Source: Methanobrevibacter sp.
Lineage (GTDB): Archaea; Methanobacteriota; Methanobacteria; Methanobacteriales; Methanobacteriaceae
Direction: 5' to 3'
DNA length: 64,000 bases
Assembly (NCBI GenBank): GCA_022775905.1
Contig: JALFJX010000024.1
Coordinates: 1-64,000, forward strand
Part shown: in pieces, positions 25,102-33,834 of the stretch
Layout of the letters: each line of letters begins with the position of its first letter
Position numbering within the stretch: position 1 is the first letter of the stretch
Made by a program: the position numbers and the translations under genes
The notes under the pieces: model-generated
The model's database searches: none
Told to the model about the DNA's origin: nothing
Seen by the model: the letters and a program-made list of their open reading frames with translations, nothing else

Positions 25102-25968
<867 letters not shown>

Positions 25969-25979
25969 ACTAAACACCC

Positions 25980-27695
25980 CTATTTACCTTCAACGTCTAC
26001 TCTAATTGGGTTGGATACGTAGTGATCGTGTACTGGGTAGTTTTCCCATTTGACTGAGTAATATTGAGTGAAGAACGGCATAATGTTGTCGATAACTTTT
26101 TGCTCGTTTTGTTCCCAACCTTTTACGTTAACCCAAATGTTTTGACTTTCTTTAACTTTTACAATTTCTTTGTCTTTTACTAAGATTTGACCATCTTTAA
26201 TAGTGTATTGAGCAATATCGAAACCTTTTTCGATTTCAGCAGCTTGTCTGGATGGGTCAATTTCATTAGGATTTATGTCATATACAGCAATGTCTGCTCT
26301 GTAACCAGGGGTGAGTGCACCTCTGTCTTGGAATCCGTAGATTTTAGCAGGAGCAGATCTTGTAATAGTTGCAATATCGTAGAAATCGTATTCTCTGTCG
26401 AGAGTTGCAAGGGTGGTTCTTTTTTCTGCCCATTTGTGAACTTCTCTGTTTTCAATCATTTCCATTCTTCTTTGGTTACTCATTAACCAAGAGATAATTC
26501 TAGGATATCTAGTGAATGGACCTGCGTTAGGGTGGTCAGTGGTTAAACATACTTTCCATGGGTCATCAATGTGTAAGAACAATTCAAGACCAATAGCCCA
26601 TTGTAAAGTGTTAACAGGGTTTTTAGCTGAGTAAATACATGGAATAATACCTGCTGCGGTTTCACATTCAATATCTTTGTTGGTCCATTTTAAACCAGAT
26701 AATTTGAATAAGTCGTATTCCATAGGAGCGTCAGCAGTCATGGTAGTAGTTTCATCAAAAGTAACTTGTCCTACATCACAAGTAACGTGGTCGTTTTTGT
26801 TAATGTATTTAGCAACTTCTTCAGCACCAGATGCAGCATCTTTCCAACTGTTACCAGTGTAAGAGTGGAATTGTAAGTGACAAAGGTGCATAATTTGATC
26901 TCTGACATCAGCAGCGCCTGAACCTTTTTTGATACCTTTTACTGCTTCCATGGTTTCGAGAGTAGTAGGTACGTTTCCAGGGTGTCCTAAGTCATTAGGG
27001 TGAATGTGGATAGAGTGAGGTAAGTTTAACATTTCGTTAGCTTTTGCTAAAGCAATAACAACTTCTTTAGAAGTTACGTCAAAGTATGGTGCTTTATCGT
27101 TAATACCATGTACGTTCATACCCCAACCCCATGCTTCACTTCCACATGGGTTTACGATTTTAATTCCGTAACCTTTTGAGATTTTTAACCATGCAGATAC
27201 AAATGCTGCAATGTCTTCAATATTGTTATCTTTTGCGTATTCCATTACAAACCAGTTGTTACCGAATAATGGTAAAGCTGGAATGTCTAATTGAGGAATA
27301 GTTGCAATTTCTTCGTGAGTGTGTTTTGCTTCAAGAGGCGGCATAGCTGCTTCAACAACAGTACCGTAACCTAATCTTGAGTATCTGTAACCAGTTGCAG
27401 GACAACTTGGGATAGAGAATCCAGATTCAGATCTTAATACTTTAGTTTTTTGAGTAACACCTCTTCTGGAATCTTCAGGCCTGTATAATCTTCCGACTAC
27501 AAGTTTTGGACCTGCAACGTGAGCGTGAGGGTCAATACCTGCTGGCATGACTATTTTATCGGTAACGTCTAAGACTTTAGCATCTGCAGATACATCATCT
27601 ACAATAATACCATCTTTGAACATAACGTCTTTTTTCTCACCGTTAATTTCATTAGCTGGGTCGTAGACAATACCATTTTTAAGAATATATTCCAT
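25980..27695 (-). CDS. fwdA: Formylmethanofuran dehydrogenase subunit A
   Basis: Binuclear-metal amidohydrolase subunit that joins formate, delivered from FwdB, to methanofuran. 571 residues. Metal ligands include HAHVAG near residue 58, [12 protein letters not shown] near 228, LCHLQFHSY near 270 and TTDHPNAG near 390. AAGGTGAT is placed three bases before the ATG. Nine bases after fwdB. Confidence 0.97.
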
Positions 27696-27704
27696 TATAT
27701 CACC

Positions 27705-29081
27705 TTATAATGCGTTTGGATTTGGTACGAATTTTGGAGCTACGTTAGGCTCTTCTCTGAGTTTCATTACTCTTTCTTTCAATTCACGGACAATCCATTC
27801 GTCGTCACGACAAGTTTCAGGTTTGTCGATTGCTTTTTTCATGTATATAGGAACTCCATCCATACGGTAACTTGTACCAGCACATTCAACAGCAATGAAT
27901 GAACCTGGTAATACTACGTCAGCGAGTTCGGTGGAAGGTCCCCAGTGAATATCGATTTGGATAACAGGAATGTTAGCTAAGTGTTGGTTTGCTCCATTAG
28001 GGAAGTGAGCACCAGGGTCCGCTGCAATAACCATGAAACAGTCAGGTTCTTTTCTGACTAATAAATCGATAGTGTTGGTTTCACCTAACATATATCTTGG
28101 GTATCCTCTACAGTAGTCAACACCGAAAGCGAATCCACATTCAAATGCCATGAAGATGTTGAATCCGTTTACGTTAAAGTGACCTCTCATAGGAGTGAGT
28201 CCCCATTTACTGTATTTGTTTAAGTCTTGTACCATTTTAATAGCAATATCAATGTTTCTTTGTTTTGATAAAGTGTGGGTTAAACCTAAACCGAAGAAGA
28301 GAACACCAAATTCAGCTTGTTTCATTTCTTCTGCTAATTCGTAAATATCTTCTTTAGGAATTCCAGAAATTACATCTTGGTATAATTCTTTTCCTCTGAG
28401 TACAGCTCTAATAGCGTTGTAGAAACCGTAGTCCCCGTTTTGTTCGAATCCAATCCATTTATCAGAACATTTTGCAGTATCTGAGAATTTAGGATCCATA
28501 GTTACAACAGTTCTGTCGAATCTTCCTCTTTGTCTGAAGTATCCACGACAGAAAGCAGCGTATCTAGCTAAGTGTCTAGGGTGAGAGTTCATAGCATTAC
28601 TTCCAGAGTAAACAATCATATCAGCTCTGTTTTGAACTTCCCCTAAAGTTTGGATAGGGTAACCTGCGTTTTGTACAGCTTGGAGAGAAGGACCGTGACA
28701 GATAGTAGCTTGGTTATCTAATACAGCACCGATGTACTCACCTAATGCTACACCTTCTTTCATACATTCAGTAGAAGTTTCAGACCAACCGTAGAATACA
28801 GGCCTAATTGAGTTTGCAATGTATTCAGCAGCAGTGTCTAAAGCAGTATCCCAGTCAACTTCTTTGAGTTCTCCGTTTTCATCCCTAACCATAGGCACAA
28901 GTAATCTTTGGTCCATATCTTCCATGATTTTACTTGCTCCTAATCTGCATGCGTGTCTTACAGCAACAACGTGATTATCTTTTACTAAGTAATCTAAATC
29001 GTCACAGTTACAACCACAGAATGCACAAGTACAATTTTCAACAATGTGATCGTAATCAGTTACAGGTGGTTCATAAGTCAT
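27705..29081 (-). CDS. fwdB: Formylmethanofuran dehydrogenase subunit B (W/Mo catalytic)
   Basis: Molybdopterin-type catalytic subunit that reduces CO2 to formate. The N-terminal [4Fe-4S] cysteines are in [13 protein letters not shown] (residues 16-28) with C45; the metal-ligand cysteine is C128 in ATICHGPS, encoded TGT, so this is not a selenoprotein. 458 residues from the ATG at 29081 after GGAGG. It overlaps the fwdD end by 11 bases, showing translational coupling. Tungsten or molybdenum use cannot be told from sequence. Confidence 0.96.
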
Positions 29082-29640
29082 GATCAATCAACTCCTCCCA
29101 TTTACGTCCGTGATAAACAGGTAATTCACCTAAAGATTCCATGTTTTCAACAACATCATCATCTTCTTCATCAACGTATTTTTTGTACACCCATCTCATT
29201 AAGTCAGCCATGAGTAATACTTTTCTATCAGTTTTTTCTACAGTACATTTAATACCTTTGTAAGTAGGGTCGGAACAACAGTAGGTATCGTGGCTTACAA
29301 TAGTGTTAGCCCATGGACCTTTACAAATGAATACAGTACCTTCGTGAGGTGCATCTCTTGATACAGCACAGTTTACAACAACTTCACCGAAATCGGTTTT
29401 TACAAGAACAGTATCCCAGTTGTTTACACCTAATTTAGCCATGTCCCTAGGGTCCATGTAACAGGTACCAGATACGTTTTTATATTCTTCTTTTAAAGTG
29501 GATCCTCTTTTTTTACAAGCACCTTGGTAGATGTCAGATCCAGTGTTTAACATACATTTAAGAACATCAGTAGTTCCTTCACCAGTAATTTTTACATCAG
29601 GTACTACAGGTTTTTCTAAATAAGTATTAGCGTAATGCAT
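29071..29640 (-). CDS. fwdD: Formylmethanofuran dehydrogenase subunit D
   Basis: Molybdopterin dinucleotide-binding domain that completes the FwdB site. The barrel includes [27 protein letters not shown] and [12 protein letters not shown]. At 189 residues it is longer than the roughly 130 I expect for the family; the extra part is a C-terminal acidic tail from about residue 135 with no motif I can name. GGGGGAT precedes the ATG. Confidence 0.92.
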
Positions 29641-29653
29641 TATATAATCCCCC

Positions 29654-29884
29654 TTATTCTAACCATATAGCATTTACTGGGCAAAACATTTGACATGTTC
29701 CACACAATTCACATTTTTCAGGACTGAAGAGTTTGATAAATCCGTTTTCGACCATCATAACAACTTCTTCGGTCTTTGCACCATTACCACCAGCATTTTC
29801 TGGACTGATAGCTGCATTAACAGGACATGCGATAACACAAATACCGCATCCTAAACAATTATCTTGATTTACTTTAAGTTCCAT
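29654..29884 (-). CDS. fwdG: Formylmethanofuran dehydrogenase subunit G (2[4Fe-4S] ferredoxin)
   Basis: 76 residues with two four-cysteine motifs, [12 protein letters not shown] and [12 protein letters not shown]. Carries electrons to the FwdB centre. GGTGATAGG before ATG; 8 bases after fwdF. Confidence 0.93.
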
Positions 29885-29892
29885 CCTATCAC

Positions 29893-30990
29893 CTAATCTT
29901 TAATAGCGTCTAAAGCTTCTTTCCAAGTAGCGGAGTTAATAGGAGTGTGGTCAACTTCAGTTCTTTTTACAGTAATAGCATCGTTAGGACATGCTTTTGC
30001 ACATGCTTTACATTTTACACAGTAATCACTGTAAGCAACAACGTGTGCCATTCTGGAACCAGGACCAGTAGATACAGGGAATGCTAAAGCATTACATTGA
30101 CAGATATCTACACAAGCACCACAAGCTTGACATTTTTCATCATCAACTTCAATACTACCTTCAAATGGTTTTTTAACTTTTGCAGCATCGGTAGGACATA
30201 CGCCTTCACACCATCCACAGTAGACACAAAGGTCAGAGTCGATAATGGAGTTACCTTTAACAGCTGCTTTTGAAGGATCTAAATCATATTCTCCGTAGTT
30301 ACATGCTCTACAAATTGCTTTAATAGCGTTGGTAGGGCAGGATTTTTTACATACGAGACAATATACACAAGCATCTTTATCAATAACAATGGATTCTTTA
30401 CCAGTTTCGTGATCAACGATGATTGCTTCTGCAGGACATAATTCTTCACATACACCACAGTAAATACATTCGTCTTCATCAACATCGATTTCACCAGTTA
30501 CTAAATCAGCACGGTCTGGTAAAACTCTGTCAATAACGATTGCATCACGAGGACATGCGATTTCACATCTTTTACAGTAGATACATTCATCATCATCAAT
30601 TTCTGAGAAAGCGTTGTAATGAGGATATGCTTCAATTTCTTTAATTGGTGTGCCGTCAATAGTTAATACTAATGCATCTACAGGACATAATCCACTGCAC
30701 ATACCACATAATACACATTTACTTTCGTCAATGCTTACTCTTTGAACATCAAAGTCTTCATGGAAGTTTTGAGCAATCTTTTCGTGTCCACTGAAGTAGA
30801 TGTCGTTAGAAAGTCTGTGACGAGCATCGATAGCAACTGCATTTAATGTAATTGCTTCTACAGGACAAGTAGATTCACAAATCCCACAACCTAAACAAAC
30901 ATGGTCATTGAATGACAAGTTTCTTACTTCATCAGCAGACCTTGTAATGTCAAAGTTATTGTCTTTAACCTCTTTTAAATTTCTAATCAT
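29893..30990 (-). CDS. fwdF: Polyferredoxin subunit F of formylmethanofuran dehydrogenase
   Basis: 365 residues containing eight CxxCxxCxxxC motifs (CLGC, CVLC, CIYC, CIYC, CVYC, CVYC, CQAC, CVKC), so eight [4Fe-4S] clusters, forming an electron wire into the complex. An extra CRAC pair near residue 232 lacks the other two cysteines. The ATG begins one base after the upstream regulator gene ends. Confidence 0.95.
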   Translation of the reverse strand: MIRNLKEVKDNNFDITRSADEVRNLSFNDHVCLGCGICESTCPVEAITLNAVAIDARHRLSNDIYFSGHEKIAQNFHEDFDVQRVSIDESKCVLCGMCSGLCPVDALVLTIDGTPIKEIEAYPHYNAFSEIDDDECIYCKRCEIACPRDAIVIDRVLPDRADLVTGEIDVDEDECIYCGVCEELCPAEAIIVDHETGKESIVIDKDACVYCLVCKKSCPTNAIKAICRACNYGEYDLDPSKAAVKGNSIIDSDLCVYCGWCEGVCPTDAAKVKKPFEGSIEVDDEKCQACGACVDICQCNALAFPVSTGPGSRMAHVVAYSDYCVKCKACAKACPNDAITVKRTEVDHTPINSATWKEALDAIKD

Positions 30991-30991
30991 A

Positions 30992-31441
30992 TTAAATCTC
31001 CAAAATTTTTATCGAATTAGTTGGGCATTCATCTTCACAAAGCTGACAACCACAACATTGCATGGAGTCTGCATGCGCTTGCAATGAAACTAATTTAATT
31101 GCCTTCATAGTGCATGCATTTACACATAAGCCGCAACCAATACAAGAATCTTCTACTTTTGCTTCAAAATTTCTTTCTCTGCAAATATTCACAATTTTAC
31201 GACTCTGTTCTGGATTATGAAATATTGCCTCTGTCATCATTAAAAAATCTCTGGGAGATAAGTCGATGATTGTCCTTGCAACATCAATTGAGTTCCAAGA
31301 CAAGTTTCTACCATTCAAGTAGTGTGAAATAGTAGATCTATCAACGCCTAACTCATCAGCAATTTCTTGATGACTTCTACCAGCCATTTTTAATTTGACT
31401 GCTGCAATATATTTTAAACCAGACGCAATATGTTTTGGCAT
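30992..31441 (-). CDS. HTH-ferredoxin protein heading the fwd operon
   Basis: 149 residues from the ATG at 31441, preceded by TTGGTGG; a longer open frame upstream lacks a site. Residues 1-60 form a helix-turn-helix (GRSHQEIADELGVDRSTISHYLNG). Residues about 96-148 are a two-cluster ferredoxin (CIGCGLCVNAC and CCGCQLCEDECP). It occupies the place of fwdH in Methanothermobacter and may correspond to it. A DNA-binding domain joined to Fe-S clusters suggests a redox or metal-status sensor regulating its own operon; a 19-bp palindrome sits 11 bases before its start codon. Regulatory role is inference; the domains are clear. Confidence 0.85.
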   Translation of the reverse strand: MPKHIASGLKYIAAVKLKMAGRSHQEIADELGVDRSTISHYLNGRNLSWNSIDVARTIIDLSPRDFLMMTEAIFHNPEQSRKIVNICRERNFEAKVEDSCIGCGLCVNACTMKAIKLVSLQAHADSMQCCGCQLCEDECPTNSIKILEI

Positions 31442-31452
31442 TTGAACCACCA

Positions 31453-31471
31453 ATGTGTAATGATTACACAT
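31453..31471. promoter_or_regulatory. Palindromic operator candidate, fwd side
   Basis: Perfect inverted repeat ATGTGTAA-TGA-TTACACAT. On the minus strand it lies 10-30 bases downstream of box A, covering the predicted transcription start, a position where a bound protein would block initiation. It ends 11 bases from the regulator start codon. Confidence 0.7.
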
Positions 31472-31776
31472 ATGTTTCTTTATATAAATATAGTTGCTTA
31501 CTAGATTTAAGACACAATACTTATATACTACTATGGGAATACTACACAATTTTTTTAACAAAAATTAATATACGCTCTTTAAATAATAAAATAAAATATA
31601 AATGAGAATTATAGAATAAAATAAAAGTAAATATTTTAAATTAATAAAAATTAATTAATAATAATACGTAAATACCCAAAAAAGTATCAAAAATAACAAA
31701 AATTAGTAATAAAAATAATAATAAAAAGTATTACAAAATTAAGAAAAATAACCCATAATTTTTTTGTTAACCTAAA

Positions 31777-31795
31777 ATGTGTAGTAACTACACAT
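31777..31795. promoter_or_regulatory. Palindromic operator candidate, mobB side
   Basis: Perfect inverted repeat ATGTGTAG-TAA-CTACACAT, the same as the fwd-side site except for the innermost base pair of the arms and the spacer. It lies 64 bases before mobB. Confidence 0.7.
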
Positions 31796-31859: not shown

Positions 31860-32894
31860 ATGAAAATAGTATCTATAGTCGGAAGAAAAAATACTGGAAA
31901 AACTTCATTAACTGTAAAAGTTATTGAAGAACTTACAAAAAGAGGCTACAATGTAGCATCAATTAAGCATTCCCACCACACTATGGAAATGGATAAAGAG
32001 AATACCGATACCTGGAAACATAAACAGGCCGGATCCAATGTGGTTGTTGGTATTGGCTCAACAACTTTCTTCAATGTGAGAAAAGAAATGGATTTGAATA
32101 GATTACTATTTTTAATAAAACATATGGATATCGTTGATTTCGTTGTCATAGAAGGATTTAAAAGATACAACTACTCAAAAATTGCAACATCCCCCGATGT
32201 AGTTGATGAATACACAATAAAAGAAGTAGATTCATTTACCATTGATTATGATGGTTTAAAAGAATTGGTGGATCTTATTGAAGAAAGGTCACATGACATT
32301 GTAGATACATTATTTGCAAACAACTGTGGTTTTAACAATGGAGAAACTATCGCATCTGAAATTCGTAAAGGAAACCTAACCGTTGATCAGTTAGATAAAG
32401 TTCACAGTTACTTGTCAATTGATGGTAAAGTAGTTGGATTAAACAGATTTGTAAGCGATTATTTAAAACAAAATGTGCTTGGTGTGATTAATACCTTAAA
32501 TCTTGATGAATATAATGTTGAAAGCATAGCAAATATTGAGTTAATAATCCCTGGTGAATCCTCTGAAAAACCAATTGATGCAAAATGCACAATTTTAATT
32601 AATGACAAGAATTTGGATATAAACCACTTTACAGAAAATATTGTTGCAAACTCAATAAAAGGAATGATCAATTCCATAAAAACCGAAGACAACGTCAAGA
32701 CAATTGACATAGCAATTTCAAATATTGAAAATAATAAATTAGAAAATGCTGAAATTGAACTTAAAACAAATGACCATAATGTTGAAATTAATAAATTCAC
32801 ACAAGGAATCTTGAAAGAAACTATTTTTGCAATTATAAATTCCTTAAAAACCAATGAAAAAATTACAGAATTAAAAATCAAAGTGGAAGAATGA
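31860..32894 (+). CDS. mobB: MobB-type molybdopterin cofactor GTPase with repeat extension
   Basis: Residues 1-150 match MobB, the GTP-binding partner in attaching GMP to molybdopterin: Walker A GRKNTGKTS at 8-16, KHSHH near 36-40, and VVIEGFKRY near 95-103. The protein then continues to 344 residues. The extension holds three copies of a roughly 40-45-residue unit (186-230, 247-288, 304-342), each with a DGK/NDK turn, (N/H)xFx helix and I(N)(S/T)L then a closing strand. Four bases separate it from moaA, so the two form an operon. GGGGAG precedes the ATG. Confidence 0.88.
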   Translation: MKIVSIVGRKNTGKTSLTVKVIEELTKRGYNVASIKHSHHTMEMDKENTDTWKHKQAGSNVVVGIGSTTFFNVRKEMDLNRLLFLIKHMDIVDFVVIEGFKRYNYSKIATSPDVVDEYTIKEVDSFTIDYDGLKELVDLIEERSHDIVDTLFANNCGFNNGETIASEIRKGNLTVDQLDKVHSYLSIDGKVVGLNRFVSDYLKQNVLGVINTLNLDEYNVESIANIELIIPGESSEKPIDAKCTILINDKNLDINHFTENIVANSIKGMINSIKTEDNVKTIDIAISNIENNKLENAEIELKTNDHNVEINKFTQGILKETIFAIINSLKTNEKITELKIKVEE

Positions 32895-32898
32895 TATC

Positions 32899-33834
32899 AT
32901 GTTAGAAAATGTAGTTAAAGATAAATTTGAAAGACCTATCCTTTCACTAAGAATCACAATAACAAATAGATGCAATGAAAACTGCATTTACTGTCATCAC
33001 GATGGAATGGTTTCATCAAAGGAAGAAATGACACCTGATGAATTATACACAATAAGTAAAATAGCTAAAAAAATTGGCGTTAAAAGAATGAGACTTTCAG
33101 GTGGAGATCCATTAGTTAGAAAAGACATTGTGGAAATTGTTGAAAAAATCGCAAGCCTTGATTTTAAAGATATTTCATTAACAACCAATGGAGTATTACT
33201 TGAAAAGTATGCTCAAGGTCTTAAAGATGCAGGACTAGATAGAGTCAATGTTAGTTTAGATACATTAAACAGAGACACATACAAATATGTAACAAACATG
33301 GATTATCTAAACCAGGCAAAGGCAGGAATCCTAAAAGCTGTTGAAGTTGGATTATATCCTGTTAAAATCAACATGGTAATAATGAAAGATATTAATGAAC
33401 ATGAAATAAAAGACATGTTCGAATTCTGTAAAGAACATGGAATTATCCTTCAGTTGATAGAATTAATAGAAAGTGAAAACTGTGAAGACGACGAATTCAC
33501 AATTGAACACCACTATCCATTGGAATCTCTTGAAAATAAATTAACTGATATAGCTGATAAAGTACATGAACGTAAATTTATGCAAGGGCGTAGAAAATTT
33601 TACATTGATGGTGGAGAAATCGAGATAGTTAGACCAGTTGATAACGCTAAATTCTGCGCAAGTTGCTCCAGATTAAGGATAACCCCTGATGGAAAAATTA
33701 AACCTTGCTTACTTAGAAACGATAATCTTGTAGAAATAATTTCACATATAAGAAATGGCGAAAGTGAAGAAGAACTTGTAGAACTATTTTTAAATGGAAT
33801 TAATAATCGTGAACCATTCAATAAAGAGGATTAA
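32899..33834 (+). CDS. moaA: GTP 3',8-cyclase
   Basis: Radical SAM enzyme starting molybdopterin synthesis from GTP. 311 residues. The N-terminal cluster motif is CNENCIYCHHDG, followed by LRLSGGDPL (SAM binding). The second cluster is held by CASCSRLRITPDGKIKPC near the end. Located next to mobB and between the fwd and fdh enzymes that need the pterin. Confidence 0.95.
   Translation: MLENVVKDKFERPILSLRITITNRCNENCIYCHHDGMVSSKEEMTPDELYTISKIAKKIGVKRMRLSGGDPLVRKDIVEIVEKIASLDFKDISLTTNGVLLEKYAQGLKDAGLDRVNVSLDTLNRDTYKYVTNMDYLNQAKAGILKAVEVGLYPVKINMVIMKDINEHEIKDMFEFCKEHGIILQLIELIESENCEDDEFTIEHHYPLESLENKLTDIADKVHERKFMQGRRKFYIDGGEIEIVRPVDNAKFCASCSRLRITPDGKIKPCLLRNDNLVEIISHIRNGESEEELVELFLNGINNREPFNKED

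Follow-up and report, generated by a model that had tools for sequence, protein, structure and literature searches.

A class-wide array of predicted operators at the formylmethanofuran dehydrogenase operon of Methanobacteria, with FwdH as its candidate regulator

Formylmethanofuran dehydrogenase catalyses the first step from CO2 to methane. At the locus considered here its operon stands back to back with a unit for its pterin cofactor, which raises the question of what controls the two promoters and through which sites. The window, i.e. the whole analysed stretch of 64,000 nucleotides from a Methanobrevibacter genome, carries the enzyme operon on the minus strand. Its first gene, fwdH (30992–31441, with the start set at the ATG at 31441), encodes an HTH_3 domain joined to a 2[4Fe-4S] ferredoxin domain and is our candidate regulator; it was named by gene order, not by sequence, after the fwdHFGDACB operon. 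It is followed by fwdF for a polyferredoxin (29893–30990; NF042909), fwdG for a ferredoxin with two Fer4 matches (29654–29884; order as in fwdHFGD), fwdD (29071–29640; Molydop_binding, NF042908 below its cut-off), fwdB for the pterin-binding catalytic subunit (27705–29081; TIGR03129), fwdA (25980–27695; TIGR03121) and fwdC (25102–25977; TIGR03122). The divergent cofactor unit on the plus strand is opened by mobB (31860–32894; TIGR00176) and continues with moaA (32899–33834; TIGR02668). FwdH of the fwdHFGDACB operon has been given as an enzyme subunit, and the W-enzyme of Methanothermobacter was reported to be constitutive (PMC3087415).

The initial annotation had claimed two perfect 19-bp palindromes, one at each of the divergent promoters, and inspection of the window sequence bore out both their coordinates and their symmetry: both are perfect inverted repeats with 8-bp arms and a 3-bp centre. 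The predicted proximal operator, ATGTGTAATGATTACACAT (31453–31471), lies ~12–30 bp upstream of the fwdH ATG, a position kept across the class Methanobacteria, with one end 1 bp away from the GGTGG of the ribosome-binding site (31447–31451). It also covers the transcription start predicted from the TATA box at 31480–31488, in agreement with the annotation. The predicted distal operator, ATGTGTAGTAACTACACAT (31777–31795), lies 65–83 bp upstream of the mobB ATG and 336–354 bp upstream of the fwdH ATG, and its mean column conservation in an alignment of 52 species of the window's genus is 0.98. In the whole genome (1,828,846 bp in 37 contigs) the pattern ATGTGTAR-N3-YTACACAT has two exact matches, both in this window, where base composition, by our own arithmetic and assuming 32% GC, predicts ~0.006 per genome. 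The next-best matches differ by two mismatches, and at up to three mismatches the total of 37 does not rise above the 39 of the reversed control pattern. The statement that the window holds no third copy stands for exact matches and fails for imperfect ones: the sequence TTGTGTAGTATTCCCATAG (31531–31549, minus strand), directly upstream of a TATA box, is such a copy and represents a predicted middle operator. The palindrome observation is thus real and stronger than first claimed.

The candidate sites flank the promoter of fwdH, the first gene of the operon. Two predicted TATA boxes, both conserved in the alignment and ~40 bp apart, lie in this region on the minus strand: TATATAA (31521–31527), directly downstream of the middle operator, and TTTATATAA (31480–31488), ahead of the proximal one. 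The window's own middle site has poor symmetry, and several relatives carry a near-perfect or perfect palindrome at that position; the left arm of the proximal site is missing in many species. In many species of the genus a second palindrome, TTTAGG-N4/5-CCTAAA, adjoins the distal operator, with a degenerate version at 31760–31776 of the window. It also occurs upstream of the TATA box of a ferredoxin–polyferredoxin operon inserted at five loci (L256–L260) and may bind another regulator.

FwdH is present throughout the class Methanobacteria, with homologues in 99 of the 139 genomes of the family, and the core GTGTA-N5-TACAC recurs at a few fixed places that precede the fwdH ATG by ~28, 106 and 353 bp, with other distal positions (~386 and ~410 bp) in genus g9. 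Summed over the 139 family genomes, strict motif matches number 149 versus 26 for a control pattern, and 117 of them lie no more than 700 bp upstream of fwdH. A weight matrix built from sites at these same loci finds ~190 sites in 103 fwdH upstream regions, nearly all at the fixed places, and five in reversed sequence; since the matrix was built from these loci, the count of ~190 is not independent, although the positions are still informative. Proximal and middle sites are found in Methanobacteriaceae and in three further families, at a spacing of 77–80 bp; for 56 of the 59 cases where both sites score, it amounts to 77 or 78 bp. Two of the three other families have the form TGTGTG..CACACA; judging from relationship, the three would be Methanothermobacter and its thermophilic kin. 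This FwdH-associated array of predicted operators across the class, together with the length-conserved spacer of the window's genus described below, constitutes the larger finding.

These counts agree with the earlier prediction that copies should concentrate before fwd and mob, and neither random scatter nor loss of the palindromes in close relatives that keep the gene order was found. The same prediction had extended to fdh and to tungstate or molybdate transport genes, and no concentration at such genes was seen among the matches examined. A wider regulon was rejected: among the matches listed and examined, those outside fwd and mob fall inside a coding gene (L265), lie beside a vWA-domain gene or resemble chance hits. 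The vWA-domain gene has, just upstream of it and near a small HTH gene, a different palindrome, TGTGTATAACTTACACA, which is conserved in several species (L262 2057–2075, L263 2283–2301 and L264 2203–2221; also in genomes G074 and G086) and is probably the operator of another regulator.

Which of the two units does the distal site serve? Where mobB has moved 0.6–2.4 kb away from fwd, both promoters usually retain a copy. At seven loci (L020, L136 and L256–L260), where the units are parted by an inserted ferredoxin–polyferredoxin operon or by ~190 bp of additional sequence, one copy is found at the fixed distance from fwdH and another upstream of mobB, and such retention at both separated promoters is what co-regulation predicts. 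At L261, with a large surface-protein gene between the units, the fwdH copy is kept and mobB has none. Copies at mobB are confined to the window's genus and one close genus; none was found at mobB in genera g6, g8 and g9 or in the thermophile-like families, though fwd sites are present there. The distal site therefore belongs to the fwd array and, in the window's genus, would also serve mobB. The view of one site each for fwd and mobB is therefore upheld in so far as separated copies speak for co-regulation, and corrected in that the right-hand palindrome is primarily the distal member of a three-site fwd array. Co-regulation of fwd and mobB–moaA in the window's genus thus appears partly supported by these sequences, and a 'balancing' of enzyme and cofactor, as the annotation had put it, may be inferred. 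The insert itself (L256 5452–7129, also at L257, L258, L259, L260 and L290) comprises a ferredoxin gene and a gene for a polyferredoxin of 336–338 aa, ~40% identical to FwdF, and stands between the mob and fwd operators with an operator copy on each side.

The 227-bp spacer between the distal and middle sites (31550–31776) is kept in length and mostly not in sequence. It measures 225–229 bp in 47 of the 52 species of the window's genus, 237–238 bp in four and 231 bp in one (L070), and outside its distal-side part the sequence is near random (ungapped identity ~0.35–0.5 versus 0.38 expected). Far more variable is the gap between the distal site and the mobB ATG (78 bp, SD 8). In four species an element inside the spacer is displaced by ~10 bp while the total length is unchanged, so that the internal shift is compensated; four other species carry an extra 10 bp that is uncompensated. 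On the fwdH–fwdF tree accounting for the +10 state takes three changes, of which well-supported branches impose at least two; length jumps of about one helical turn thus recur on the tree. The distal-side 110 bp of the spacer (31667–31776) contain A/T tracts phased at ~11 bp, with predicted curvature. Such phasing is found there in 34 of the 52 species at p ≤ 0.05, tested singly, in two of the 52 in the rest of the spacer, and in one of 12 further intergenic regions from the window. The distal spacings of genus g9, 281 and ~305 bp, are also fixed, yet they are out of helical phase with 246, and a simple helical rule therefore fails to cover all genera. To the extent that sequence can tell, the fixed spacing and phased tracts fit a loop or a wrapped complex under a helical constraint.

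A natural loss in one genus bears on the link between the sites and FwdH. In genus g12, presumably Methanosphaera, no full-length FwdH was found in the 20 genomes, a MoaA match above the cut-off is present in none of the 20, and motif matches occur at chance level only, whereas FwdB is kept in 19 of the 20. In five of these genomes (L308–L312) fwdGDBAC stay, and fwdH, fwdF and all sites are gone from the region. Loss of molybdopterin synthesis has been published for Methanosphaera (PMC6120340, PMC13135261), and the pattern in g12 agrees with it. Regulator and operators would therefore vanish together where the enzyme is thought to be nonworking and its genes stay; coming from a single evolutionary event, the pattern speaks for a connection between FwdH and the sites but is no proof of it.

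The HTH_3 match of FwdH itself (PF01381) scores 27.1 bits against a cut-off of 23, and the protein has weak sequence similarity to lambda repressors. The predicted structure has confident helices at residues 24–31 and 35–42 in an HTH arrangement and a ferredoxin fold at 92–148; a fold search gave good matches to the ferredoxin part and none covering the HTH alone. Across the FwdH alignment R35, S36, T37, S39, H40 and Y41 are invariant in the recognition-helix region, as are C100, C103, C106 and C110 and C129, C132, C135 and C139, which form two intact CxxCxxCxxxC motifs. The Fe-S part resembles the polyferredoxin modules of MvhB and FwdF, and FwdH may accordingly read the electron supply of the enzyme. 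Covariation between the recognition helix and the operator was set aside as a proof of binding, because the replacement of D34 by N34 tracks the operator change inconsistently (D with A in f1, N with G in f2 and f3, N with A in f4). Among openly readable papers we found none on FwdH as a regulator or on the motif. Other candidates encoded in the genome were rejected. A near-copy of the operator core does lie just upstream of a MarR-family gene (L269 2009–2027; genome G000, contig C12:43008) and is not conserved in relatives; a search of 41 genomes found the gene in 11, and no good site accompanies any of its four closest homologues. MsvR was set aside because its published operator is a different one, although the genome does encode a V4R protein.

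The sites, their class-wide positions, the constraint on spacing, the co-loss with fwdH and the co-occurrence with mobB can all be read from the sequences. Building on them, we consider it fairly probable that a FwdH dimer binds a fixed, probably looped array of three sites, mainly represses fwd and co-sets mobB–moaA. FwdH would bind TGTGTR-N5-YACACA at the distal, middle and proximal positions, where the middle site would abut the BRE/TATA of one fwd promoter and the proximal site would cover the start from the second TATA box, beside the ribosome-binding site. Spacings of 77–80 bp and of 227 or 237 bp would put the three complexes in a fixed geometry, the simplest being a loop of curved DNA that brings the distal site to the promoter. 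The main effect of bound FwdH would be repression: by obstructing TBP/TFB and access to the start site it would exert negative feedback on fwdHFGDBAC, and its ferredoxin clusters may report redox or Fe-S status. Because the distal site lies just upstream of the mobB promoter in the window's genus, FwdH is proposed to set mobB–moaA too. A bolder version seems possible but doubtful to us, namely that FwdH represents a new archaeal regulator family with a DNA-binding head fused to a ferredoxin, senses the low-potential ferredoxin pool that feeds CO2 reduction and, via a 227-bp looped complex over curved DNA, sets the first methanogenic enzyme together with its pterin cofactor.

If FwdH binds the array, it might still do so as an activator, in the manner of archaeal activators that recruit TBP upstream of promoters. 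A middle site just upstream of BRE/TATA and a distal one ahead of the mobB promoter, with its TATA-like elements, would suit that role, whereas a middle operator overlapping the BRE position and a proximal site over the predicted start and ribosome-binding-site region suit repression; we regard activation as somewhat unlikely. Less likely again is an unlinked transcription factor as the binder, with FwdH an electron-carrying subunit or assembly protein that uses its HTH otherwise. The literature does term FwdH an enzyme subunit (PMC3087415), and the helix–operator covariation among f1–f4 is inconsistent. Against such a factor, the sites and FwdH have disappeared jointly from a genus that keeps the enzyme genes, the sites stand at the fwdH promoter in the whole class, and the recognition-helix region ranks with the best-conserved parts of FwdH; MarR, encoded in the window's genome with a similar site at its promoter, is patchy in distribution and that site is not conserved.

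Two further explanations were considered. A fixed length without sequence conservation and the phased A/T tracts could reflect chromatin wrapping, with the palindromes organising the nucleoid or histones. Elements of that kind would be expected repeatedly along the genome, which has only two exact copies, and the family-wide matches are mostly at one regulon, making this reading very unlikely. Hardly credible at all is an RNA hairpin that would form in the 5' leader and cover the ribosome-binding site: by inspection the proximal palindrome, directly 5' of GGTGG, can pair as RNA, but seven or eight of the eight arm pairs are present in only 48 of 94 species, and the same motif also occurs upstream of TATA boxes. 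With pairing conserved in only half of the species, the hairpin reading was rejected, and we retain mainly repressive binding by FwdH as the preferred one.

How does the proposed system compare with known ones? LacI, GalR and AraC are bacterial looping repressors with a distant auxiliary operator and a helical-phase constraint; they differ from the present array in protein and domain of life, and the loop proposed here is suggested by spacing alone. IscR, FNR and SoxR are iron-sulfur regulators that combine a helix-turn-helix with an Fe-S cluster as the sensor; theirs is a single built-in cluster, whereas FwdH has a complete bacterial-type 2[4Fe-4S] ferredoxin domain. Among archaeal regulators, MsvR of Methanothermobacter and Methanosarcina is a V4R-domain redox regulator and, like the proposed FwdH, a redox-linked methanogen autoregulator that has several boxes in a divergent intergenic region and exerts repression by blocking TBP/TFB (PMC3729527). 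MsvR relies on its V4R domain and cysteines rather than on a ferredoxin domain; its boxes tolerate minor spacing changes, and its operator is TTCGTA-N4-TACGAA (PMC3729527), in contrast to TGTGTA-N5-TACACA, or more generally TGTGTR-N5-YACACA, here. In Pfam, FwdH matches HTH and Fer4 families only and lacks the V4R domain (PF02830), which resides in a separate protein of the genome. Tfx of Methanothermobacter, the regulator of the Mo-dependent fmdECB operon (PMC3087415), resembles the proposed FwdH in that it binds DNA, has its gene next to a formylmethanofuran dehydrogenase operon and acts on that operon. However, Tfx acts on the operon of the Mo isoenzyme, and its transcription is repressed by tungstate (PMC3087415). 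No Tfx family match for FwdH is among the Pfam matches and the listed NCBIfam matches, and Pfam detects no LysR-type HTH with a molybdate-binding (TOBE) domain of the ModE/TunR type in it.

Until now, the control of formylmethanofuran dehydrogenase in gut and rumen methanogens has been largely unknown. Our results offer a candidate regulator, FwdH, an operator code, a candidate regulon (fwd and, in the window's gut genus, also mobB–moaA) and a predicted geometry. For an archaeon, the inter-operator spacer, conserved in length and free in sequence, would be an uncommon mark of long-range promoter architecture.
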